From positions 1 to 46,981 of the forward strand of contig CACAWX010000005.1 in the NCBI GenBank assembly GCA_902536305.1: a stretch of DNA of 46,981 bases, in the 5' to 3' direction. A model generated the notes under the pieces. It had not been told where the DNA came from. It was given only the letters and a program-made list of their open reading frames with translations, and ran no database searches. Source of the stretch: an uncultured Pelagibacteraceae bacterium (lineage in GTDB: Bacteria > Pseudomonadota > Alphaproteobacteria > Pelagibacterales > Pelagibacteraceae). Both the position numbers and the translations under genes were made by a program. This document shows positions 200 to 46,981 of this stretch, in pieces. How positions within the stretch are numbered: position 1 is the stretch's first letter; each line of letters opens with the position of its first letter.

Positions 200-415
200 G
201 TGCTAAAAATAAATCCAAAAAAATTTAAAGAAATTAAAAACAAAACTATACCTAGTCCTTTAAGACCTAAGTTCAGGAAAAAAACTCAAGCAAATATTTA
301 CTTCCTTTCTCAAAGAAAATTTAACGGTGAAAAGAAAACTAGATTAATAAAAAATATAAGATTATTTAGTGCACTCTCTATTATATTAATTGGTGGTTAT
401 TTTTTAACTAATTAA
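200..415 (+). CDS. Small hypothetical protein with C-terminal membrane anchor
   Basis: A 71-codon frame begins with GTG; no ATG is available upstream in frame and there is no clear ribosome binding site, so the start is uncertain. The peptide is basic (many Lys/Arg) for about 50 residues and ends in one hydrophobic segment (about residues 54-69, LFSALSIILIGGYFL), which suggests a cytoplasmic positively charged tail held by a C-terminal membrane helix. Its stop overlaps the convergent hydratase-family gene by 8 nt. I do not recognise the family. The frame is kept because it fills an otherwise empty 340-base interval and has a plausible membrane topology; it could still be spurious. Confidence 0.4.
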   Translation: MLKINPKKFKEIKNKTIPSPLRPKFRKKTQANIYFLSQRKFNGEKKTRLIKNIRLFSALSIILIGGYFLTN

Positions 416-1184
416 TCTTCGTTGAAACAGATCCAAGTTTGTTGATCACTCCTTTATAAAAACTTTTACTTAAAATAGGAACAACACCAACGGAAGATCC
501 AGTGAAAACATAAAAATCTTTACTAAGTTTAATTTTATCTATTTGTAATTTTCTAAGGACAAATCTTAGGGAGTTCATCGGGTCTATATAAACGGTATTT
601 GTATTACCATTAACTACTTGATTAGCTTTTTTATTAATAATAGAGGTTTTAAGATTTTTAGTATTTTGATTTTTAAATTTTTTTCTCTGACCTATAATGA
701 ATTTTACATTAGCACCGAAATCTGAACAAAGATCACCTAAACTTTTAATACCCTTCTTTTTTTGTCTATAACCAACAATTTCAATACAAGGAGCAATATG
801 TGTTATAAATTTTCTAATATTTTTTTTAGTAGCTTTAGGCTTCAAATTAAAAAAATCTTTTTTAATCAAATAACATACCTCTAATTCTATACCCATTGTA
901 AATTTATTAATTTTTACGCTTTTTTTATTTTTTAAAACGTTATGTTTGTAAACAGTTGCATAAAATGGTTCTTTTTCTTTAAGTTTTTTTAAAACTGGAA
1001 TGCCAGTCCCGGCTGCTTTAAAACCACTGATTGGTTTATTGATTTTACTTTCGCACAATTTTCTAAATTTTTGAGCGTTAGAAATTTTTTTGGTAAATTT
1101 TTTTGGTAAGGGAGAGATAATTTTATTCTTTAAAAAGGCATTGACAATTCTGTCAGCGTATTTATTTAAATTTTTATTAATCAT
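408..1184 (-). CDS. 2-keto-4-pentenoate hydratase (MhpD) / fumarylacetoacetase-family protein
   Basis: 258 residues, the usual length for MhpD-type hydratases and decarboxylases of the FAH superfamily. The MGIELEVCYLI segment (around residues 96-106) carries the E-x-E pair that binds the divalent metal in this family, and SSVGVVPI near the C-terminus corresponds to the family's conserved GSL-type end segment. The family hydrates or decarboxylates 2-oxo-alkenoates, but the true substrate is not predictable. The start ATG overlaps the stop of the phosphofructokinase gene by one base (TAATG), so the two are co-transcribed. A second, divergent member lies at 39783-40562. Lys content is very high even for this window. 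Family assignment is fairly sure, reaction is open. Confidence 0.7.
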   Translation of the reverse strand: MINKNLNKYADRIVNAFLKNKIISPLPKKFTKKISNAQKFRKLCESKINKPISGFKAAGTGIPVLKKLKEKEPFYATVYKHNVLKNKKSVKINKFTMGIELEVCYLIKKDFFNLKPKATKKNIRKFITHIAPCIEIVGYRQKKKGIKSLGDLCSDFGANVKFIIGQRKKFKNQNTKNLKTSIINKKANQVVNGNTNTVYIDPMNSLRFVLRKLQIDKIKLSKDFYVFTGSSVGVVPILSKSFYKGVINKLGSVSTKIN

Positions 1185-38164: not shown

Positions 38165-38287
38165 ATGAAAACAATTTTTTTATTTTTTTTAACTATTTAT
38201 ATTGCATATTACCTTTTTCGTCCTGTGACAAAAAAAGAGATAAAGAAATTTAACGATCCAGATAATTGGTCAAATATGGGTTTTTAA
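38165..38287 (+). CDS. Tiny membrane protein (40 residues)
   Basis: A frame of 40 codons with an ATG start, an N-terminal membrane helix (MKTIFLFFLTIYIAYYLF) and a charged tail ending FNDPDNWSNMGF. It runs convergently into the SDR gene (18-nt overlap). No clear ribosome binding site. The helix-then-tail design and a non-random ending make it plausible, but length allows chance. Confidence 0.35.
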   Translation: MKTIFLFFLTIYIAYYLFRPVTKKEIKKFNDPDNWSNMGF

Positions 38288-39025
38288 CCGCTTAATTTTC
38301 CCACCATCAATTGCAATATTATTAAAATTTAAATTAGAACTTCTTATTAAACTATAAACTAACTTTGCAACTTCTTCTGGTTTAGTAGGTCTTTTAATTT
38401 TATCAGCTTTACATCTTTGTTTTAAAATTTGTTTTACACTTTTTTTTAAAATTTTGGAATCTGTCTCTAGTAGTTTTTTTAGCCTACTTGTCAATGTCAT
38501 ACCTGGGTGAATTATTGATACTGATACTTTATCCATTTTACCTTGCATTGCTAATGCTCTAGAAAAGTTGTTTAGTGCAGAGTTAACTGCGCCCCCTATC
38601 ATAAATGTATTTGAAGGATTTCTAGCTGCTCCCCCACCTATATTTATTATTTTTCCTTTATTTATTCTTAAAGTTTTCCAAAAGTTTCTGCTTAATCTCA
38701 CAGCTGCTTTAAATTTTAGATTAAAACCGTCATCCCAAACATTGTCTTTAAGTTTTAAAAAACTACCACCTTTAGTAGCTCCAGCTACATTAATTAGATA
38801 ATTTAATTTTTTAATTTTGGCTCCAATAGAGTTGCATGCAGATAATGAGCGTAAGTCTTTTGAAATTATTATTGAATTTTTAGGAAATTTTAAACTAGTT
38901 TGAATTTTTTTTAATTTAACTTTTGATCTTGCAACCAAAATAACTTTAATTTTTTTTTGATTTAATTCTTTAGCTATGGCTGAACCTATTCCTTGGCTTG
39001 CTCCTGTGATCAAAGCTATCTTCAT
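38270..39025 (-). CDS. SDR-fold protein lacking the catalytic Tyr and Lys
   Basis: 251 residues from the ATG at 39025, which overlaps the upstream gene by 4 nt (ATGA); a longer form from 39037 is possible. The Rossmann motif GASQGIGSAIA (8-18) and NVAGAT (79-84) are good, so NAD(P) is probably bound. At the active site the usual Ser...Tyr-x3-Lys is replaced: NIGGGAARN has no Ser at 130-131, and GGAVNSAL has Gly 144 for Tyr and Asn 148 for Lys. It may act by another mechanism, or be a binding or structural partner of the neighbouring SDR. Third gene of the hydratase-SDR-SDR operon. Confidence 0.8.
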   Translation of the reverse strand: MKIALITGASQGIGSAIAKELNQKKIKVILVARSKVKLKKIQTSLKFPKNSIIISKDLRSLSACNSIGAKIKKLNYLINVAGATKGGSFLKLKDNVWDDGFNLKFKAAVRLSRNFWKTLRINKGKIINIGGGAARNPSNTFMIGGAVNSALNNFSRALAMQGKMDKVSVSIIHPGMTLTSRLKKLLETDSKILKKSVKQILKQRCKADKIKRPTKPEEVAKLVYSLIRSSNLNFNNIAIDGGKIKRLKTHI

Positions 39026-39786
39026 TGAACTGACCATCCTCCGTCCATAATCATATTTGATCCGGTAATTTGTTCTGCTTCATTTGTTGTTAAGAAATAA
39101 GCCATACTCGATACATCATTTTTTTTAATGAATTCCATAGAGGGATGTTTTTCTTTTATCAGATCTTTTTTAGCTTTGTTAAAAGATATTTTTCTATCAT
39201 TAGCTATTTTTTTGATTTGTTTGATAACAAGCTCTGTCAAAACAAAACCAGGACCTATTGCATTACAGGTTATATTTTCTTCAGCTGTCTCTAAGGCTAC
39301 AACTTTGGTTAGTCCTACCAATCCATGTTTAGATGATACATAGCCAGATTTATTCTTCGAAGCTACTTTTCCATGAACAGATGAAATATTAATTATTCTC
39401 CCCCATTTATTTCTTCTCATAATCGGCAAAACCTCTTTAATCATTCTAAATGGAGTTGTTAAATTTAATTCAATTATATATTCCCAAATATCATCAGAAA
39501 ATTTAGTTATTGGTGCAACGTGCTGTCTTCCAGCACAATTAACAAGTACATCAATTTTTTTAAATTTCTTAGTGGTGTTTTTTACAAATTTATAAAGATT
39601 TTTTTTATTTAATAGATTGGCATTCATTACAATCGATCGATTAAAGTTAAATAATAACTTAATTTTCTTCATTTCATTCTTATTTATTATTCCAGCAATT
39701 GAAATGTTATAATTCTTTTTATAAAAAAATTTAGCAATATCTAATCCTATACCGCTCGTACCACCTGTTATTATTATCGTTCTCAT
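39022..39786 (-). CDS. 3-hydroxybutyrate dehydrogenase-like SDR
   Basis: 254 residues. TGGTSGIGLDIA (7-18), NCAGRQHVAPI, and a full active site Ser 135/136, Tyr 149, Lys 153 (YVSSK). SSVHGKVAS, KHGLVGLTKVVALE and the ending GSNMIMDGGWSVQ closely resemble bacterial D-3-hydroxybutyrate dehydrogenase (BdhA). It would oxidise a 3-hydroxy acid to a 3-oxo acid with NAD. Given the hydratase partner, the real substrate may be another hydroxy acid. ATGA overlaps with both neighbours. Confidence 0.85.
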   Translation of the reverse strand: MRTIIITGGTSGIGLDIAKFFYKKNYNISIAGIINKNEMKKIKLLFNFNRSIVMNANLLNKKNLYKFVKNTTKKFKKIDVLVNCAGRQHVAPITKFSDDIWEYIIELNLTTPFRMIKEVLPIMRRNKWGRIINISSVHGKVASKNKSGYVSSKHGLVGLTKVVALETAEENITCNAIGPGFVLTELVIKQIKKIANDRKISFNKAKKDLIKEKHPSMEFIKKNDVSSMAYFLTTNEAEQITGSNMIMDGGWSVQ

Positions 39787-40562
39787 ATAATCTTTATTTC
39801 GAATTTTCCTAAGTTTTCATAATTTATATTAATATGATCTTTTTCTTTTATATTGTAAGGCTGAATTAAAGATCCACATAGTAGATAATCTCCTTTTTTA
39901 AATGCTATATCTTTATCTTTAAACTCGTCAACAAAAGCCTTTAATGAAAATCTAGGATCTATTCTTTTTTCTCCTGTAAAAAATGGCTCGATTATATGAT
40001 TATTAATATTAAGCTTAATTTTAACTTTATTCACGTTAATATTTATCCAATTTTTAATTTCATTTCCTATAATTATCTTGCCTCCATTGCCATGATCAGC
40101 AATACCTAAATACATTTGAGTTAATTTATTAAAACTAGATTTAGCATTTTGTTCGTACCTTGATGAAGTTATATCAATAGCTGTAAATAATTTTATATTT
40201 TCTAAATTATTAACAAGATCATCATTAATTTTATAATCCTGGCCAAACTTAAAAGCGTACTCACATTCTATATTTGAAAAGGGAATATCCTTGTAATTTA
40301 TTTCACATTTTGAATGTAGAATAGTATTTTCAAATATTTTTCCTGGTACAGGTCCATCGAAACCCTCTTCTATTTGTACCTCTTTGGCTACAGCGCCAAT
40401 CTTCCAACCTACTGTTTTTTGTTTAATTTTTTTATAAAATAAATTTAATGCTTCGTACGCTTCCTCCCTTGAAGAAGGAATTTCATTCTTATCAAAATTA
40501 TTTAAATCAATAAGGGTTTTAGATTCCCAAGCATTTGCTAATTCATCACTTAATTTATTCAT
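39783..40562 (-). CDS. 2-keto-4-pentenoate hydratase-family protein
   Basis: 259 residues. VGWKIGAVAKEVQ (35-60 region), GPVPGKIFENTI, NIECEYAFKFG with the metal-binding E-x-E, IDITSSRYEQ and DHGNGGKIIIG match the MhpD hydratase/decarboxylase family. It would add water to, or decarboxylate, a 2-oxo-alkenoate in the breakdown of an aromatic or aliphatic acid. First gene of a leftward operon with two SDRs, divergent from the DUF1907 gene across 62 bases. It is distant from the family member at 408-1184, which has a much more basic composition. Confidence 0.8.
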   Translation of the reverse strand: MNKLSDELANAWESKTLIDLNNFDKNEIPSSREEAYEALNLFYKKIKQKTVGWKIGAVAKEVQIEEGFDGPVPGKIFENTILHSKCEINYKDIPFSNIECEYAFKFGQDYKINDDLVNNLENIKLFTAIDITSSRYEQNAKSSFNKLTQMYLGIADHGNGGKIIIGNEIKNWININVNKVKIKLNINNHIIEPFFTGEKRIDPRFSLKAFVDEFKDKDIAFKKGDYLLCGSLIQPYNIKEKDHININYENLGKFEIKII

Positions 40563-40624
40563 ATAAAATATATTTAATAACTATATTTAATTTGATTATT
40601 ATTTGATAATGATATTAATACAGC

Positions 40625-41590
40625 ATGGAATTATCAATCGATAAAGCTGAATTTGCTAAGACTTCACTTGAACAAATATCAGAGGCTTTAAAAAAAGGGT
40701 TAGTTCAAAACTATAAGTCAGTTGAAATATCTATCGAAAATTGTCCTGATCTAACAAAATGGGACTGTCCGGCTTCTGGCTTAAGTGGAAATCAAAAAAT
40801 TATTGATGTTGGCGGTGAACCTTATATGCACGATAAAAGATTTATAGGTGCTGAATTTGATTTTGAGGAGATTGCAAAAAGAATTGGATCTGAAAAATCT
40901 TATGCTTTAGGCGCAGGATCTGGTGCTATGTCATGTTTAGATGGGCATTGTGGTGAATTAGTTATTAATGAAAATTTAATTAATAATGAGTCTAGATCAA
41001 TAATTGCTCAAGTAGACGAACAAAATAATTGCAAAGCATCTAAATATTCTGCTCGCAAACATGGTGGTTTAGGAAATATTTACTACTCTGATGGAAATAC
41101 TGGAAAAGTTATTAAGATTATAATTAAAGGAAGATCTGGTGAACAAGGTTCTCTACCTCAAGCTATGCGTAAAGCTTTGAGTGATAATCTTTCAATCTCA
41201 AATAATAATCATGTGGCCGTAGCTGGTATTTTTAGAATTTTAAAAGGTAAAATTAAATCTCATGTTCAACCAGACTACGATACTATTAAACATGAATATT
41301 ACGACCCAAAACAAATGAAATGTGTGAAAGATTTTTTACAGTTCTATGAACCTATTGGGCCTCATTTTCAGTGCTATTCAATCCTTTGGACTGGTGATCC
41401 TACAGGAGGAAAACTAAATTTAAGGGAGTCGGGTGAACACACACATTTTCACTCCTATAAAGGAACCCAAGATGCTGGTCATTATCACTTCGATGTAACA
41501 CCAAATGATATTGAATATGAGTGTTATTTTAATATTGCACCTGAAGTACACAGAGTAAATAATATATACAAAGAGCTAGCCTCAAAATAA
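40625..41590 (+). CDS. DUF1907 zinc ester hydrolase, homologue of human C11orf54 (PTD012)
   Basis: 321 residues, near the human protein's 315. The family's zinc site is recognisable as H-x-H-x9-H: His 274, His 276 and His 286 in EHTHFHSYKG and DAGHYHFD. Earlier blocks such as CPASGLSGNQKIIDVGG, GAGSGAMSCLDGHCGEL and GEQGSLPQAMRKAL are also in register with the family. Human PTD012 has been reported as a zinc-containing ester hydrolase; the physiological substrate is unknown. It is divergent from the hydratase-SDR-SDR operon, so a role in the same catabolic route is possible. No signal peptide, so probably cytoplasmic. Confidence 0.85.
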   Translation: MELSIDKAEFAKTSLEQISEALKKGLVQNYKSVEISIENCPDLTKWDCPASGLSGNQKIIDVGGEPYMHDKRFIGAEFDFEEIAKRIGSEKSYALGAGSGAMSCLDGHCGELVINENLINNESRSIIAQVDEQNNCKASKYSARKHGGLGNIYYSDGNTGKVIKIIIKGRSGEQGSLPQAMRKALSDNLSISNNNHVAVAGIFRILKGKIKSHVQPDYDTIKHEYYDPKQMKCVKDFLQFYEPIGPHFQCYSILWTGDPTGGKLNLRESGEHTHFHSYKGTQDAGHYHFDVTPNDIEYECYFNIAPEVHRVNNIYKELASK

Positions 41591-41601
41591 AAAGATTTAA
41601 T

Positions 41602-42525
41602 TTATATTTTCTTAATTGGGATGGTTGGGTGCCTAGTTGTAGATGTAACAATATTTACACCAAGCTTTGCCTCTCTTAATATAATATATAATCCAGCTCC
41701 AATTATTAAAAGACTTCCAAAATAAACATTAAGACCTGGAAGGTCTTGAAACACTAAATATCCAATAATACCACCAGCAATGATTTGAATATATTGAGCG
41801 GAAGCAAATATTGATGACGGTAAATGTCTAGCTGAATTTATAACAAAAATTATAGCTACTCCTCTAAATGTACCACCCATCAAGTTTACAAATAAATCAT
41901 TAATTGGCATCGGTTTATAAAAATAAACAGCAACAATACCAGCAAATAAAATCATTAATAATTTTCCATAGATAAGAAAAGAAAACAAACTTTCCTGTTG
42001 TCCGTATTTTCTAACTATTAAATAACTAGCAGCTGGCAGAAACGGCATTATGATAGCCAGTATTCCTATTTTACTAAACTCATTACTAAAAGGATCAATA
42101 GCTATGATAGCTCCAATAAATCCAATTATAGTTGCCAAATACCTTCTCCAACTAACTTTTTCTTTTAAAAAGATAGCGCCCCCAATTGTTAATAATAAAG
42201 GAATAGTAAAAATGATGCTGTAAAGTGTAGTAAGGGGTAAATAATAAGTTGAATAAACGAAACTACTCATAGCCAAAAACATTGTTAGAGTTCTAAAAAA
42301 ATGGACAGTGAAACTTGCCTTTTTTAATTTATGCCAAGCATGTTTATATTGAGTATAAATTACTACAGTTATTAATGCTGCAAATGAAGAAAATAAAACA
42401 ATTTGAGTGGAGTGATATCTATTAATTAAATCTTTTGAGATTGTGTCCTGACATACAAATAGAAAGTAGCCTAACAAAGCTAACACAAAATTTGTGTAGT
42501 TGACCCGCTTAGTTACGGATTGCAT
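41602..42525 (-). CDS. EamA/DMT-family transporter
   Basis: 307 residues with about ten hydrophobic helices in two EamA repeats (for example FLAMSSFVYSTYYLPLTTL in the first, SARHLPSSIFASAQYIQII in the second). Such transporters export amino acids, nucleosides or other metabolites, and some import. Substrate cannot be read from the sequence. It ends convergently 11 bases after the DUF1907 gene and begins 8 bases after the PhyH gene, so it probably shares that gene's transcript. Confidence 0.85.
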   Translation of the reverse strand: MQSVTKRVNYTNFVLALLGYFLFVCQDTISKDLINRYHSTQIVLFSSFAALITVVIYTQYKHAWHKLKKASFTVHFFRTLTMFLAMSSFVYSTYYLPLTTLYSIIFTIPLLLTIGGAIFLKEKVSWRRYLATIIGFIGAIIAIDPFSNEFSKIGILAIIMPFLPAASYLIVRKYGQQESLFSFLIYGKLLMILFAGIVAVYFYKPMPINDLFVNLMGGTFRGVAIIFVINSARHLPSSIFASAQYIQIIAGGIIGYLVFQDLPGLNVYFGSLLIIGAGLYIILREAKLGVNIVTSTTRHPTIPIKKI

Positions 42526-42533
42526 TTAATAAA

Positions 42534-43514
42534 TTATATGACGTTTGGTAAATCTCTTTTTGAGTTTTTAAAAGTTGGTAATGGATACTTATAAGTCCAT
42601 TTTCTTGGAATACATTTATTTTTAGCCTCTTCCCACATTGCTATCCATTGTTTGTAATTATTTACTTTAATATTTTTTCTATTTTTACTTTTTACTACAA
42701 AACTTGGTAATGGATCCCTACCAGAATGTTGTCCTGTTTTATTAAATCTTAAATCCATACTTATTCTAAAATTTTTTGATTTATTTGGAAGAGAACAATG
42801 GATTAAATACCTACTTAATAAAATAATATCACCAACATTGGCCTCTAAAGCAATAGTTTTTAAATCATCTATTTTTTCTTTACCTTTAATTTCAACTTGA
42901 CCTTTGCTGCCTGTATCATGGTTTACTAAACCTAATTTATGACTTTCTTTAACCGCCAACATACATCCGTTTTCTATTCTTGTTTTTGTAAAAGGTATCC
43001 AGCAAGTAACTAATTCAGTGCCCTTTTGACCTTTTTTATTCATTACACCAGCATCTTGGTGCCATGGGGTTCTGCCAACTAAACCATCATGTAAATTTTT
43101 TTTAGAAATTGCTTTTTCAGGTTGTTTTATTCTAGAATTTTGACAAGGATTAGAAGACAATTCCTGTCCAAGTATTTTAGAAACTTTTTCTAGAATTTTA
43201 TTATTTTTAATTAGATTAAAGATCGATTGGCTTGCAAAAAAATCGCTGTCTACATTTACATTTTGTGGAAGTCTTATATTAAAATATTGATCCAATTCTG
43301 GAATATTCAATTTAACTAAATGCGAGTATTTCTTTTTAAAGCTTAGCATTAATACTCTTCTTTTATCTTTTTTAGGAACGAATCTATGAACTAGTCTGTT
43401 CATGATGAAAGCCATGTCGTTTAATATTGGTTCTAAGTCTAATTTATAATCCAGAACATTTCGAATTCTGACAAAACCGTTTTTCTCGAATTCTTTTCTA
43501 ATATTTTGAGCCAT
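42534..43514 (-). CDS. Phytanoyl-CoA dioxygenase (PhyH)-family Fe(II)/2-oxoglutarate oxygenase
   Basis: 326 residues. The iron triad is His 152, Asp 154 (TPWHQDAG) and His 239 (LIHCSLPN), and Arg 250 (NFRISMDLR) is placed to bind 2-oxoglutarate. ENGCMLAVKESHK is the usual block before the second sheet. The family hydroxylates diverse small molecules, including phytanoyl-CoA, ectoine and methylphosphonates; the substrate here is unknown. It follows livG by 40 bases, so it may be co-transcribed with the transporter. Confidence 0.85.
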   Translation of the reverse strand: MAQNIRKEFEKNGFVRIRNVLDYKLDLEPILNDMAFIMNRLVHRFVPKKDKRRVLMLSFKKKYSHLVKLNIPELDQYFNIRLPQNVNVDSDFFASQSIFNLIKNNKILEKVSKILGQELSSNPCQNSRIKQPEKAISKKNLHDGLVGRTPWHQDAGVMNKKGQKGTELVTCWIPFTKTRIENGCMLAVKESHKLGLVNHDTGSKGQVEIKGKEKIDDLKTIALEANVGDIILLSRYLIHCSLPNKSKNFRISMDLRFNKTGQHSGRDPLPSFVVKSKNRKNIKVNNYKQWIAMWEEAKNKCIPRKWTYKYPLPTFKNSKRDLPNVI

Positions 43515-43554: not shown

Positions 43555-44352
43555 TTATACTGCAAGTGCTTTTCTCATCTCCTCATCATCCATTTTCTTA
43601 CCAAGATAAGCCTCGATCACGGCATTATCGTCTTTAACTTTCGATGGAGTTCCCTCAGCTATTTTTTGACCATGATCAAATACTGTTACTGTATTACAAG
43701 TATCCATCACTACTTTAAGAATATGTTCAATAATAATTAAAGTAAGACCGTACTTATCTTTTAATTGCATAATAATCTTCATAAGGTTATCTACGTTAAC
43801 TGGTGACAATCCTGCTGCTGGTTCATCTAACATCAACAACTTTGGTTTCATAGCGATTGCTCTGGCTAATACTAATAATCTTCTCTGACCTCCAGAAAGT
43901 TCACTTGCATTTAGTTCAGCATAATCTGCTAAACCCACAAATGATAAAAGCTCCATCATTTCTTCTTTAATGGCTCTCTCTTGATCCCAAATTTTTTTTC
44001 TTCCCACAACTGCATCAATAAAACTATATGGAACTTTGGTATGGTAACCAGCCATCACATTATCAATTACTGTCATATCTTGATAAAGTCTTAAAAGTTG
44101 AAAAGTTCGAGATAAACCATATCCAGCTATTTTATATGGCGGTGTAAAGGTAATATCATGCCCATCAAACTCAATATAACTTCCTGGGTCGCTATCATAT
44201 ATTCCTGAGACTAAGTTAAAGAATGTACTTTTTCCAGAACCATTCGGTCCAATGATGCCTCTTATTTCATTTTTTTTAAGTTCAAAATCTACTTTGTCCA
44301 TAGCTTTTAAACCACCAAAAGATTTTGTTAGTTGTTTAGTTTTTAAAATCAT
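43555..44352 (-). CDS. livG: Branched-chain amino acid-type ABC transporter, ATP-binding protein (LivG)
   Basis: 265 residues. GIIGPNGSGKST (32-43 region), LSGGQRRLLVLARAI, LLMLDEPAAGLSP and IEHILKVVMD with the switch His give a complete ATPase; the C-terminal EAYLGKKM is typical of LivG. It powers uptake together with LivF and the LivHM permeases. It shares one base with livM. livF and livH are not next to it in this window. Confidence 0.9.
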   Translation of the reverse strand: MILKTKQLTKSFGGLKAMDKVDFELKKNEIRGIIGPNGSGKSTFFNLVSGIYDSDPGSYIEFDGHDITFTPPYKIAGYGLSRTFQLLRLYQDMTVIDNVMAGYHTKVPYSFIDAVVGRKKIWDQERAIKEEMMELLSFVGLADYAELNASELSGGQRRLLVLARAIAMKPKLLMLDEPAAGLSPVNVDNLMKIIMQLKDKYGLTLIIIEHILKVVMDTCNTVTVFDHGQKIAEGTPSKVKDDNAVIEAYLGKKMDDEEMRKALAV

Positions 44353-45341
44353 TATGTTTTTTCTGTTCCTGTTTTCTTTTTAAATCTTTTCTCTAAAAAG
44401 TATCTGTCAATAAAACCACCAATACCTTTTGGCATAAATAAAATAGTTAAAACTATAGTTAGACCAAATATTAACAATTGGTATTTGTATAAAGGACGAG
44501 TTAAATCGTAAACAATTGTAATAATGACTGCTCCAATTATTCCTCCCCAGATATGTCCTAAACCTCCGAGCACAACCATAGCTAAAAAAGTTACCATCTC
44601 AATAACTGTATAGTTATTTGGATGGATATATCCTGGTGGCATATGGGCATATACAGCTCCCGCAGCACCAGCGAACATAGCGCTTAAAATAAATGCTAAT
44701 ATTTTATATTTCTTTACGTTAATACCGGCAGCAGCAGCACATATCGGATCCTCTCGTATAGACATAAATGCTCGACCAATTCCAGATCTCAAAATACTAA
44801 ATGAAAAATAAACGGCGATTATCATTATAGTCATTGAAATAAAATAATATCTATCTGGTGAGTCAAAATTAAATCCCATTAAAGATGGAGTTGGAATATC
44901 TGAAATACCAAACGTTGATCTAAAGAAATTTCCATTTTCAATAAATAATCTAATTGCCTCTCCTCCACCTAATGTTGCTAAGGCTAAATAAGGTCCCTCT
45001 AATCTAAAAGATGGTATGCCCATTGCTACACCAAAAAATGCAGTAACCACGATTGCTATTGGTAAAGTAACCCAAAAGCCCAATCCCAAATAAAGAAATA
45101 ATGTTCCAGCAGTATAAGAACCAACTGCAAAAAGTCCGACGTGGCCTACTGTTACTTGTCCGCAATATCCTTTAACAATATTCAATCCTGCTGCAACTAC
45201 TATGTTAACAAAAATAAGTGTCGCTAAATGAGATTGATATACATCTGTAAAAATAACAGACGGTACAAGGGCAAGAATACAAAAAGCTATTATAAATGCG
45301 ATAAAAGGATAATTTCTAATTAATATTTTAAATTTTTCCAT
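44352..45341 (-). CDS. livM: Branched-chain amino acid-type ABC transporter, permease (LivM)
   Basis: 329 residues, with about nine hydrophobic helices. Conserved LivM blocks: GLNIVKGYCGQVTVGHVGLFAVGSYT region (53-78), YLALATLGGGEAIR, GRAFMSIREDPICAAAAGIN and MVVLGGLGHIWGGIIGA. It forms half of the import channel with LivH. One-base overlaps with both neighbours show tight coupling to the upstream oxygenase gene as well as to livG. Confidence 0.9.
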   Translation of the reverse strand: MEKFKILIRNYPFIAFIIAFCILALVPSVIFTDVYQSHLATLIFVNIVVAAGLNIVKGYCGQVTVGHVGLFAVGSYTAGTLFLYLGLGFWVTLPIAIVVTAFFGVAMGIPSFRLEGPYLALATLGGGEAIRLFIENGNFFRSTFGISDIPTPSLMGFNFDSPDRYYFISMTIMIIAVYFSFSILRSGIGRAFMSIREDPICAAAAGINVKKYKILAFILSAMFAGAAGAVYAHMPPGYIHPNNYTVIEMVTFLAMVVLGGLGHIWGGIIGAVIITIVYDLTRPLYKYQLLIFGLTIVLTILFMPKGIGGFIDRYFLEKRFKKKTGTEKT

Positions 45342-46207
45342 TAAACAGCTTCTTTCATAAAATAATCTGAGTCATGACTTGACGTTAGTAATTTTTTATT
45401 CGTTTTCTTAATTTTGGGAAGATAGCTTACATTCTTGTATTTCCAAACTACGGGTTTGCTTAACGCATAGCTGCCATAAATAAAAAATCTTTTTTTTCCT
45501 TTTTCTTCTCTAAATAGTGTTACTCCATGGTAGGAATTTGGAGTAGACTGAAAGAATATAACGCTACCCCTTGAAGGCGTAAATTCTTTAACTTTTGTTA
45601 ATTCTGAAATACTTGGGAACCTTTTAAAACTTTTTCTTAACTTCATATCTGCTTTTTTTTTAAATATTGTTAATGATCCACCATTCTTTTTAGGAATATC
45701 GTTAAGGTAAATTAAAAAATTATAAAGTCTTGTCACATCATCTCTATGGGGTCTTAATCTATAGCCTCCTCTGGATACGGAAAAATCAATATCTAAATTT
45801 ATATCTGGATTTTTATAGGATTTTCCTAGCATTTTTTCTAATTCTTTCGAATTCATCAATTTTTTATTTGTATACTTTTGAGTTAAGAATTTCTTTGGCA
45901 AGAAAGTGTTTGACCATCCATAAGTTCTAAACGTCCTTTTAAAACAATTTTCAACTTTTCTATAAAACGATTTACTATTAAATTGATTATATAATTTTCT
46001 CGATAATTTAGATTTTTTAAGATAATTTTTAAAATTTTTTGAACCTTTATTAATTCTATTTCTTCCCCCTTGAATAAGATCATCAAAAGATTTAGCTTTT
46101 TTAATTTCATTAATCAGTATTTCGCAATCTCTTGCTGAAATAGCTTTTTTTCCAACCATCACTGGAAAATTGCTTTTAACTTTTGATAATTTGTTAACAA
46201 CGATCAT
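45341..46207 (-). CDS. 2-oxoglutarate-Fe(II) oxygenase (prolyl-hydroxylase-like) inside the liv operon
   Basis: 288 residues. The triad is His 154, Asp 156 (RPHRDD) and His 227 (SYHGVTL), with Arg 240 for 2-oxoglutarate (KKRFFIYG). LIYLNDIPKKNGGSLTIF and RGSVIFFQSTPNSYHG follow the 2OG-FeII_Oxy_3 pattern. The N-terminal 110 residues are basic and not recognised. It lies between the binding-protein gene and livM and overlaps livM by one base, so it is part of the transporter transcript. It could hydroxylate the imported compound or an amino acid residue of a protein. The family assignment is firm, the target unknown. Confidence 0.85.
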   Translation of the reverse strand: MIVVNKLSKVKSNFPVMVGKKAISARDCEILINEIKKAKSFDDLIQGGRNRINKGSKNFKNYLKKSKLSRKLYNQFNSKSFYRKVENCFKRTFRTYGWSNTFLPKKFLTQKYTNKKLMNSKELEKMLGKSYKNPDINLDIDFSVSRGGYRLRPHRDDVTRLYNFLIYLNDIPKKNGGSLTIFKKKADMKLRKSFKRFPSISELTKVKEFTPSRGSVIFFQSTPNSYHGVTLFREEKGKKRFFIYGSYALSKPVVWKYKNVSYLPKIKKTNKKLLTSSHDSDYFMKEAV

Positions 46208-46270: not shown

Positions 46271-46981
46271 TTATAAACCAGCGCTAGCGTTGAAAGTAAC
46301 TGTACCTGCAACGGCTGTTTTAAAGTTCTTACCACCTCTTGTGTACTCAATCATAACAGGAGTTCTGTTACCATCTCTACACTCAGGTGATCCTGATTTA
46401 CAGAAATTAATTGGACCAGATGCTAAACCTCTAAAGTCAGTTGTAGCAGCAATTGCGTCTCTTAAACTATTTCTATCAGCAGCTAGATCTCCAGAGAATT
46501 TAGTCTTTTTAAGAGCTATCTCTAAAATATCTAACAAGTCCATCATTTGAGAAAAGTCGTGTCCTGGTACAACACCGTATTTGTCTTTTACCATTTTCAC
46601 GAATTTTTTAGCTATAGGTCTTTTGTCAGACGCAGCAAATGCAGCAGCATATGTTACACCTTTAGCAGCAGATCCAGCGTTTGTTGGGATCTCTACTTTC
46701 GAACCAATTGAAGCTGTTACTCTGTGTACAGATTTTGGAATTCCAACTTCATATGATTGCACTAGACCACGTACTGTCTCATCCATGAGTGCTGAAATTA
46801 CAAGCACTTCTGGATTAGTAGCTTTAGCTTTTGTTAAGTAACTTCTAAAGTCAGTCTCTTTCTCACCTGACTGAACCATATAAGTAGGCTCAACATTATA
46901 GTTTTCTCTCATGTAATCAGCTAATGATAATGCAAAATCTTTACCAGCTGCATCAGGACCATAGATATAAGCTATTTTAGT
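46271..46981 (-). CDS. Branched-chain amino acid-type ABC transporter, substrate-binding protein (partial, 3' part)
   Basis: The frame is open from the right edge (46981) to the stop at 46271, 236 residues; the start lies outside the window. It starts TKIAYIYGPDAAGKDFALSL and continues with GEKETDFRSYLTKAKATNPEVL, the LivJ/LivK-type (peripla_BP_6) second lobe. PINFCKSGSPECRDGNRTPVM near the end adds a Cys pair and the GNR signature of C-terminal lobes. It would bind an amino acid or carboxylate in the periplasm. Base composition is less AT-rich than its neighbours, as with glpV, consistent with high expression. The gene is followed by a strong hairpin. Confidence 0.9.
   Translation of the reverse strand, partial: TKIAYIYGPDAAGKDFALSLADYMRENYNVEPTYMVQSGEKETDFRSYLTKAKATNPEVLVISALMDETVRGLVQSYEVGIPKSVHRVTASIGSKVEIPTNAGSAAKGVTYAAAFAASDKRPIAKKFVKMVKDKYGVVPGHDFSQMMDLLDILEIALKKTKFSGDLAADRNSLRDAIAATTDFRGLASGPINFCKSGSPECRDGNRTPVMIEYTRGGKNFKTAVAGTVTFNASAGL

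Follow-up and report, generated by a model that had tools for sequence, protein, structure and literature searches.

The human protein C11orf54 (PTD012), which belongs to the DUF1907 family, had no known reaction before 2025, when a PNAS paper, as relayed by a commentary and a citing JACS paper, reported it to be a 3-dehydro-L-gulonate decarboxylase; the view of a preliminary description of the DNA analysed here, that the family's substrate was yet to be found, is thereby superseded for the human enzyme. According to the commentary, three conserved histidines of human C11orf54 bind zinc, PTD012 hydrolyses p-nitrophenyl acetate, and the protein had already been noted as akin to acetolactate decarboxylases, the two being decarboxylases that act on similar substrates. 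Among the literature matches listed, none links DUF1907 or C11orf54 to SAR11 or Pelagibacter.

Gene content of the locus

A bacterial DUF1907 gene and its neighbours were analysed in a 46,981-nucleotide stretch (the window) of a Pelagibacteraceae (SAR11) genome. The four genes of the preliminary description (SDR2, SDR1, HYD and DUF1907) were all intact open reading frames at the positions it gave, and both short-chain dehydrogenases (SDRs) and DUF1907 matched Pfam. The window's genus (g1) was compared with two others (g2 and g4) within a family sample of 197 genomes. Neighbours were counted per locus in 42 of the 52 genomes with DUF1907 (40 fetched stretches, genome L179 and the window) within 10 kb, with a threshold of 0.75 bits per residue, and these counts are lower bounds, as some stretches reach contig edges. 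The features are as follows.

38270-39037, minus strand: SDR2, atypical protein of the short-chain dehydrogenase fold (Pfam adh_short, alignments)
39022-39786, minus strand: SDR1, BdhA-like 3-hydroxy acid dehydrogenase by sequence (Pfam adh_short, NCBIfam, alignments)
39783-40562, minus strand: HYD, MhpD/HpaH/NahK-family protein by sequence, divergent neighbour of DUF1907 (NCBIfam, profile matches)
40563-40624: 62-bp AT-rich spacer separating HYD from the divergent DUF1907 gene
40625-41590, plus strand: DUF1907 (C11orf54 family), predicted zinc-dependent 3-keto hydroxy acid decarboxylase (Pfam, structure model)
41602-42525, minus strand: EamA-family transporter (18/21 g1 loci)
42534-43514, minus strand: PhyH-type Fe(II)/2-oxoglutarate oxygenase (18/21 g1 loci, 11/11 g4)
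43555-44352, minus strand: LivG-like ABC transporter ATPase
44352-45341, minus strand: LivM-like ABC transporter permease, named by sequence appearance (17/21 g1 loci)
45341-46207, minus strand: 2OG-Fe(II) oxygenase (14/21 g1 loci, 11/11 g4)
46271-46981, minus strand: Liv-type periplasmic binding protein, 5' part cut off where the contig ends (reading frame open through base 46981)

SDR2 and SDR1 overlap by 16 bp and SDR1 and HYD by 4 bp, and the three genes therefore probably form one co-transcribed unit.

Family and fold of the DUF1907 protein

The DUF1907 protein scored 197.7 bits against PF08925 (cut-off 25), covering model positions 1-285 of 285, and residues 10-312 of its 321 matched human PTD012/C11orf54 (1xcr; E = 7e-36). 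His272, His274 and His286, which we take to be the equivalents of the zinc-binding histidines of C11orf54-type proteins, align with the EHTHF...GHYH motif of 1xcr and were invariant in 15 of 15 SAR11 copies picked for diversity from 119. From the HxH to the third His there are 11 residues in the window protein and 9 in the human one.

A structure model (mean pLDDT 70, with weak stretches of pLDDT < 50 at residues 97-111 and 212-242) aligned with 1xcr at Z 28, with 30% identity across 294 aligned residues, and with nine entries of the acetolactate decarboxylase type at Z 8.4-9.8; the first unrelated entry below these scored 4.5. The latter likeness is one of general fold only, along ~200-215 residues at 7-12% identity; unlike bacterial alpha-acetolactate decarboxylase, the window protein is longer, and its first 53 residues fall outside the aligned ranges. 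When Foldseek was run with the model, 1xcr was the sole match below E 0.001, with no acetolactate decarboxylase among such matches.

Because the presumed zinc histidines are kept and the model fits 1xcr and, more remotely, the acetolactate decarboxylases, sequence and model make decarboxylation of a 3-keto hydroxy acid likelier for this protein than ester hydrolysis. While near full-length homology, modelled fold and the zinc HxH...H motif are shared with human C11orf54, the window protein is bacterial and lies within a multi-gene uptake and catabolism island among other partners.

Partner proteins HYD, SDR1 and SDR2

HYD had no match in Pfam and matched the NCBIfam models HpaH, MhpD, DmpE and DmpH weakly, reaching none of the four cut-offs (best 51.1 bits; HpaH cut-off 351.5). 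A profile of HYD and its relatives matched solved HpaH/MhpD/NahK chains (2-keto-4-pentenoate hydratases and 4-oxalocrotonate decarboxylases) along almost its entire length (best E = 3e-17, 2eb4), and K54, E99 and E101, representing the conserved Lys and ExE motif, were invariant in 7 aligned rows. By these sequence features HYD is a member of the MhpD/HpaH/NahK superfamily, so that the kinship behind its earlier naming as a 2-oxo-alkenoate hydratase stands, whereas the specific activity finds no backing in the equivalog cut-offs. The third presumed metal ligand is Asp in the window HYD and Glu in the g2 HYD, the two proteins being just 35-40% identical, and HYD does not conserve the Asp found in the 2eb4 motif EPDYG, a residue that is given an active-site role in HpcG-type enzymes.

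Of the NCBIfam models for 3-hydroxybutyrate dehydrogenase, SDR1 passed NF009093 (282.3 bits, cut-off 258) but failed TIGR01963 (275.8 vs 307.05) and NF009931 (214.6 vs 340). It scored 173-206 bits against eleven solved D-3-hydroxybutyrate dehydrogenase sequences and, when aligned to those of 2yz7, 5yss and 1wmb, retained the catalytic Ser-Tyr-Lys. Where the aligned enzymes share a Trp, to which a functional role is ascribed in 3-hydroxybutyrate dehydrogenases, SDR1 has Phe, and its genome context also differs. SDR1 thus looks BdhA-like, with catalytic residues that would suit making a 3-keto acid.

In SDR2 the Rossmann motif TGASQGIG is intact, while alignment with 3t4x places Gly at the catalytic Tyr, Asn at the Lys and Gly at the Ser; NIGGGA and TFMIGGAVN were found in 63 of 63 copies, redundant copies counted. 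As far as the aligned residues tell, SDR2 lacks the Ser and YxxxK of a classical SDR, in agreement with its earlier description as atypical.

Recurrence of the neighbourhood in Pelagibacteraceae

DUF1907 was found in 52 of the 197 family genomes. HYD and DUF1907 occurred together in 38 genomes, DUF1907 alone in 14, HYD alone in 6 and neither in 139, a count that excludes the HYD matches of 8 of 52 matched genomes, which were weaker than E 1e-20. For the PanB-like protein the corresponding numbers were 42, 10, 4 (PanB-like alone) and 141, with matches weaker than E 1e-100 dropped (6 of 52 matched genomes). The Fisher tests of co-occurrence treat genomes as independent, with relatedness uncorrected. 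In all 38 genomes having both, HYD and DUF1907 were adjacent and divergent, which is more than chance would give, and the two genes are tightly linked in two genera. The recurrent neighbourhood on which the preliminary description had staked its proposal is therefore present; the co-occurrence of DUF1907 with MhpD and BdhA, which it proposed to survey, was borne out in Pelagibacteraceae for the MhpD-like HYD but not for SDR1, which, although BdhA-like by sequence, occurs solely in the clade of the window (2 of 21 g1 loci; 3 of 44 named loci of the window type) and was ruled out as a constant partner.

No close HYD was seen within 10 kb of DUF1907 in g4 (0/11 loci), SDR2 was present in 20 of 21 g1, 3 of 10 g2 and none of 11 g4 loci, and four g2 genomes (G049, G056, G077 and G145) had an intact HYD without DUF1907 or the PanB-like gene; HYD and SDR2 are therefore not strictly bound to DUF1907, and strict HYD-DUF1907 dependence was ruled out by the same four genomes. 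In the other two HYD-only genomes, HYD lay in two pieces (G001) or the sequence ended at a contig edge (G099).

Outside the family, a DUF1907 relative was detected in 1 of 385 genomes of an Alphaproteobacteria class sample and in 1 of 398 of a phylum sample, in both cases the window's own genome; the two samples overlap. Plasmids and phages gave no DUF1907 match and viral contigs no relative, and every one of the best 80 of 269 DUF1907 relatives from genome contigs had Pelagibacteraceae, Pelagibacterales or Candidatus Pelagibacter in its title.

The wider island

Far more than four genes recur together: these four form one end of an island of ~20 kb. It comprises a Liv-type ABC transporter, Fe/2OG oxygenases, PanB-like and PanE-like proteins, an acyl-CoA synthetase, an enoyl-CoA hydratase, an enolase-superfamily protein, an HpaI-type aldolase and sugar dehydrogenases. 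In relatives, LivF, LivH, PanE-like, ACS, ECH, MLE, HpaI and GFO genes are found past the binding protein gene; in the window's genome the island from the PanE-like gene onward sits on a separate contig (C12), and g2 carries the same gene set in a different order. The PanB-like protein scored 112.9 bits against a cut-off of 272, ruling out a true PanB, and had no match in the window's own assembly (73% complete). The enolase-superfamily protein is nearest to arabinonate/galactonate dehydratases, with scores far under their cut-offs.

In g4, the inositol catabolism gene IolD (TIGR04377, 802 bits, cut-off 715) is found 3.1-3.6 kb away from DUF1907 in 9 of the 11 loci, and the loci also carry an HpaI/GarL-type aldolase, ALDH and GFO dehydrogenases. 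While IolD and GFO dehydrogenases are features shared with bacterial iol gene sets, IolD was not seen within 10 kb of DUF1907 in the 21 g1 and 10 g2 loci. Among the annotated genes, which cover part of the island, neither a sugar kinase nor a CRYL1-type 3HCDH enzyme was identified.

Discussion

On balance, we favour the reading that the locus is one end of an island by which SAR11 takes up and breaks down a polyhydroxylated carboxylic acid resembling a sugar acid, with DUF1907 decarboxylating a 3-keto acid. From the gene identities, the modelled fold, the conservation of the zinc motif and the recurrence of the gene set we infer the decarboxylation, the step order, the catabolic direction and the substrate class. 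The Liv-type ABC transporter would import the compound, and island dehydrogenases, in the window's clade perhaps also SDR1, would yield the 3-keto acid. By analogy with C11orf54 acting on 3-dehydro-L-gulonate, the DUF1907 protein would bind zinc and split off the carboxyl group as CO2 to give a ketose-like product, and the MhpD-like protein together with the dehydratase and aldolase genes may convert other intermediates into central metabolites.

More tentatively, and in our estimate possible though doubtful, the island might encode a novel pathway for an unusual marine sugar acid, whether branched, carbocyclic or of another kind, in which C11orf54-type decarboxylation would follow C3 oxidation, the MhpD-like enzyme would have a new specificity, an SDR without catalytic residues would perform new chemistry and the PanE/PanB-like proteins would act on a hydroxymethyl-bearing intermediate.

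We consider it unlikely that SAR11 DUF1907 is itself a 3-dehydro-L-gulonate decarboxylase in a pathway leading from glucuronate/gulonate or inositol to L-xylulose. The Pfam family shared with C11orf54, the 30% identity to 1xcr, the same zinc motif and the presence of IolD less than 4 kb away in 9 of 11 g4 loci are consistent with it, but the g1 and g2 partners (enolase-superfamily protein, HpaI-type aldolase, acyl-CoA synthetase, PanB-like and PanE-like proteins) do not amount to such a route, and neither a 3HCDH L-gulonate dehydrogenase nor a xylulose kinase was recognised in the partly annotated island.

It is still less probable that the neighbourhood is accidental, DUF1907 being an accessory gene in a variable chromosomal region among unrelated catabolic genes. 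DUF1907 is found in just 52 of 197 family genomes; the g1 genome L179 has a g4-like DUF1907/PanE-like arrangement and the DUF1907 of another, L045, groups with g2 in the tree, so that genes evidently move or are lost. Against this, DUF1907 is accompanied in three genera, in different orders, by PanE-like, PanB-like, PhyH and other recurring partners, and HYD adjoins DUF1907 wherever both occur (38/38).

Least probable of all is the preliminary description's route from a DUF1907 zinc ester or lactone hydrolase through a 2-oxo-alkenoate hydratase to a 3-hydroxy acid dehydrogenase, which draws on the p-nitrophenyl acetate hydrolysis reported for human PTD012 in the commentary, the family of HYD and the BdhA-likeness of SDR1, but in which SDR1 is missing from 19 of 21 g1 loci, HYD reaches 51 bits against 351.5 for HpaH and the hydrolase itself was set aside because of the 2025 decarboxylase assignment of C11orf54, as relayed, and the acetolactate decarboxylase fold of the model.

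The favoured reading, a catabolic island with DUF1907 as decarboxylase, predicts that SAR11 decarboxylates a 3-keto sugar acid and directs attention to a compound dissolved in the ocean, possibly imported by these bacteria via the Liv-type transporter. A bacterial relative of C11orf54 in a recurring island of very abundant ocean bacteria provides gene-context evidence on C11orf54 chemistry, and, should the island indeed be an undescribed sugar acid route, SAR11 would be a natural place to learn the role of bacterial DUF1907.

Gene content and arrangement of the island

An open reading frame check confirmed the four genes of the preliminary description, in an AT-rich contig (GC content of the window ~26–34%):

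38270–39037, minus strand: SDR2, atypical short-chain dehydrogenase (Pfam adh_short)
39022–39786, minus strand: SDR1, BdhA-like short-chain dehydrogenase (Pfam adh_short)
39783–40562, minus strand: HYD, with MhpD/HpaH/NahK kinship (no Pfam match)
40625–41590, plus strand: DUF1907, C11orf54-type protein (PF08925, 197.7 bits)

The SDR2, SDR1 and HYD genes overlapped one another and lay 62 bp from the divergent DUF1907 gene, whose product was 98% identical, among the matches listed, to that of L072 (AG-470-P13), one of the closest named relatives, which are Pelagibacteraceae (SAR11). In relatives from the window's genus (g1), the order SDR2-HYD / DUF1907-PanB-like-EamA-PhyH-LivG-LivM-2OG-binding protein / LivF-LivH-PanE-like-acyl-CoA synthetase-enoyl-CoA hydratase-enolase-superfamily protein-HpaI-type aldolase-GFO-type dehydrogenases spanned ~20 kb, with two or three GFO-type dehydrogenases, one of which (376 aa) was named by look alone. 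The window ended within the binding-protein gene; contig C12 of this genome carries the remaining part of the island, starting with a PanE-like gene truncated at the contig end and running to the last of three GFO-type genes.

Two other genera carried different arrangements. Genus g2 (L170, L068) had the same gene set in another order that puts HYD/DUF1907 at the far end. In g4, PanE-like, 2OG and PhyH genes lay on the divergent side of DUF1907, which was followed by genes for a small protein, PanB-like protein, HpaI/GarL-like aldolase, ALDH, IolD and GFO proteins. Neighbours were counted within 10 kb of DUF1907 in 42 loci; the g4 IolD, scoring over its model cut-off, was 3.1–3.6 kb from DUF1907 in 9/11 loci. 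In relatives, the PanB-like protein beside DUF1907 (L032:9983-10795, L054:7813-8628) reached 112.9 bits versus a PanB cut-off of 272. Between the two genes, L054 and L046 encoded small proteins that are related to each other and have no Pfam match (137 aa, L054:8628-9041; 128 aa, L046:9973-10359). A histone-deacetylase-family protein (L032:6503-7432) was encoded downstream of SDR2 in 15/21 g1 loci. A 134-aa protein within the island (L182:5608-6012) displayed YFAYGTNLN close to its start, which is suggestive of gamma-glutamylcyclotransferases.

Distribution and co-occurrence

PF08925 was detected in 52 of 197 family-sample genomes (3/14 genera), 91 of 397 order-sample genomes and 0/14 control genomes. 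Among the 385 genomes of the class sample and the 398 of the phylum sample, it matched only the window's own genome. HYD (E <1e-20; eight genomes with weaker matches left out) was present in 44/197 family-sample genomes: 38 carried both genes, 14 DUF1907 alone, 6 HYD alone and 139 neither. A recurrent neighbourhood does exist, HYD and DUF1907 being adjacent and divergent in all 38 genomes with both. The DUF1907-alone genomes comprised 12 of g4, G167, and G041, which was cut by a contig end. Four HYD-alone genomes had an intact HYD and lacked DUF1907 and the PanB-like gene; in G001 HYD was split in two pieces, and in G099 the stretch ended at a contig edge. Strict coupling of the partners to DUF1907 is opposed by the HYD-alone genomes and by g4 genomes without HYD and SDR2. 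A HYD-type gene persisted without DUF1907 in g2 loci L173, L174, L175, L176 and L178 (in two pieces in L178).

The PanB-like gene (E <1e-100; six genomes with weaker matches left out) was found in 46/197 genomes, 42 with and 4 without DUF1907, and was absent from 10 DUF1907 genomes, including the window's own assembly (73% complete). Fisher p-values for co-occurrence (1e-22, 1e-28) are descriptive only, relatedness being ignored. In 80 named loci, many from the same assemblies as the family sample and hence not independent, loci of the window's type had HYD flanking DUF1907 in 42/44 cases, and loci of the other type a PanE-like gene in 35/36; the three exceptions (two for HYD, one for PanE-like) begin at DUF1907.

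In the DUF1907 tree, the copy of g1 locus L045 grouped with g2, and g4 was split, so these genes changed lineage or were sorted by loss. PanB-like proteins were 97–98% identical between g1 and g2 genomes (G153 versus G015 and other g2), whereas the window's DUF1907 and HYD were 67–71% and 35–40% identical to g2 copies; part of the island was possibly exchanged recently. Another g1 locus, L179 (G167:C73), had a g4-like arrangement, with DUF1907 divergent from PanE-like, PhyH and EamA genes.

A predicted decarboxylase and its partners

The preliminary description held the C11orf54 substrate to be unknown, a view now outdated: in 2025 the human protein was identified as a 3-dehydro-L-gulonate (beta-keto-L-gulonate) decarboxylase yielding L-xylulose, according to a commentary (PMC12435205) and a JACS paper (PMC12921845). 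Residues 10–312 of 321 of the window's DUF1907 aligned with the human structure 1xcr (E 7e-36), and H272, H274 and H286 were invariant in 15/15 SAR11 copies picked from 119 for diversity. An AlphaFold2 model (mean pLDDT 70.3, pTM 0.78; weak stretches 97–111 and 212–242) gave Z 28.1 against 1xcr, the sole Foldseek match with E <0.001, and Z 8.4 to 9.8 against nine acetolactate decarboxylase-type entries (next unrelated row 4.5), a kinship already pointed out for the human protein (PMC12435205). Because of this homology, the human assignment, the invariant histidines and the acetolactate decarboxylase-like model, decarboxylation of a 3-keto hydroxy acid is the best-supported prediction for DUF1907.

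SDR1 aligned with D-3-hydroxybutyrate dehydrogenases, retaining Ser-Tyr-Lys as well as the carboxylate-binding positions (Gln, His, Lys and Gln), with one Trp replaced by Phe; one NCBIfam BDH model was passed and two failed. Its proposed BdhA-like nature was upheld by alignment, but not its role as a constant DUF1907 partner, SDR1 being confined to the window's clade (2/21 g1 loci within 10 kb; 3/44 named loci of the window's type). In chemical terms, a 3-hydroxy acid dehydrogenase is a consistent neighbour for a 3-keto acid decarboxylase.

SDR2 occurred in 20/21 g1, 3/10 g2 and 0/11 g4 loci. Since Gly, Gly and Asn replaced the catalytic Ser, Tyr and Lys in alignment with 3t4x, SDR2 is not a classical oxidoreductase and is possibly a non-redox or new-chemistry SDR; the surrounding motifs were identical in 63/63 copies (redundant copies included). 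HYD showed weak kinship with HpaH/MhpD/DmpE/DmpH NCBIfam models and, by profile, with solved HpaH, MhpD and NahK chains, a family covering hydratases and decarboxylases; its conserved Lys54, Glu99 and Glu101 are consistent with a metal-dependent MhpD/NahK-family enzyme. A second, distant MhpD-like protein (window 408-1184) had no Pfam match, shared 23% identity with HYD and was encoded after a gene resembling, by eye, phosphofructokinase.

Implications for SAR11 metabolism

Literature searches returned, among the matches listed, no paper on a SAR11 DUF1907 cluster; in their available parts, a marine DUF paper tabulates DUF1907 under the label Sig without a reaction (PMC3597751) and a SAR11 habitat paper treats other sugar genes (PMC12636525).

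A textbook sugar-acid route does not account for the acyl-CoA synthetase/hydratase and PanB/PanE-like partners, and we know of no pathway matching the whole gene set. The cluster itself is real and recurrent, and its earlier interpretation is partly supported in updated form, the three-step route of ester hydrolase, hydratase and dehydrogenase being replaced. The cluster is better viewed as one portion of a catabolic island that contains a decarboxylase. From the uptake transporter, dehydrogenases, enolase-superfamily protein, aldolase, acyl-CoA synthetase and predicted 3-keto acid decarboxylase, we infer that this island would break down a polyhydroxy carboxylic acid taken up by the cell.
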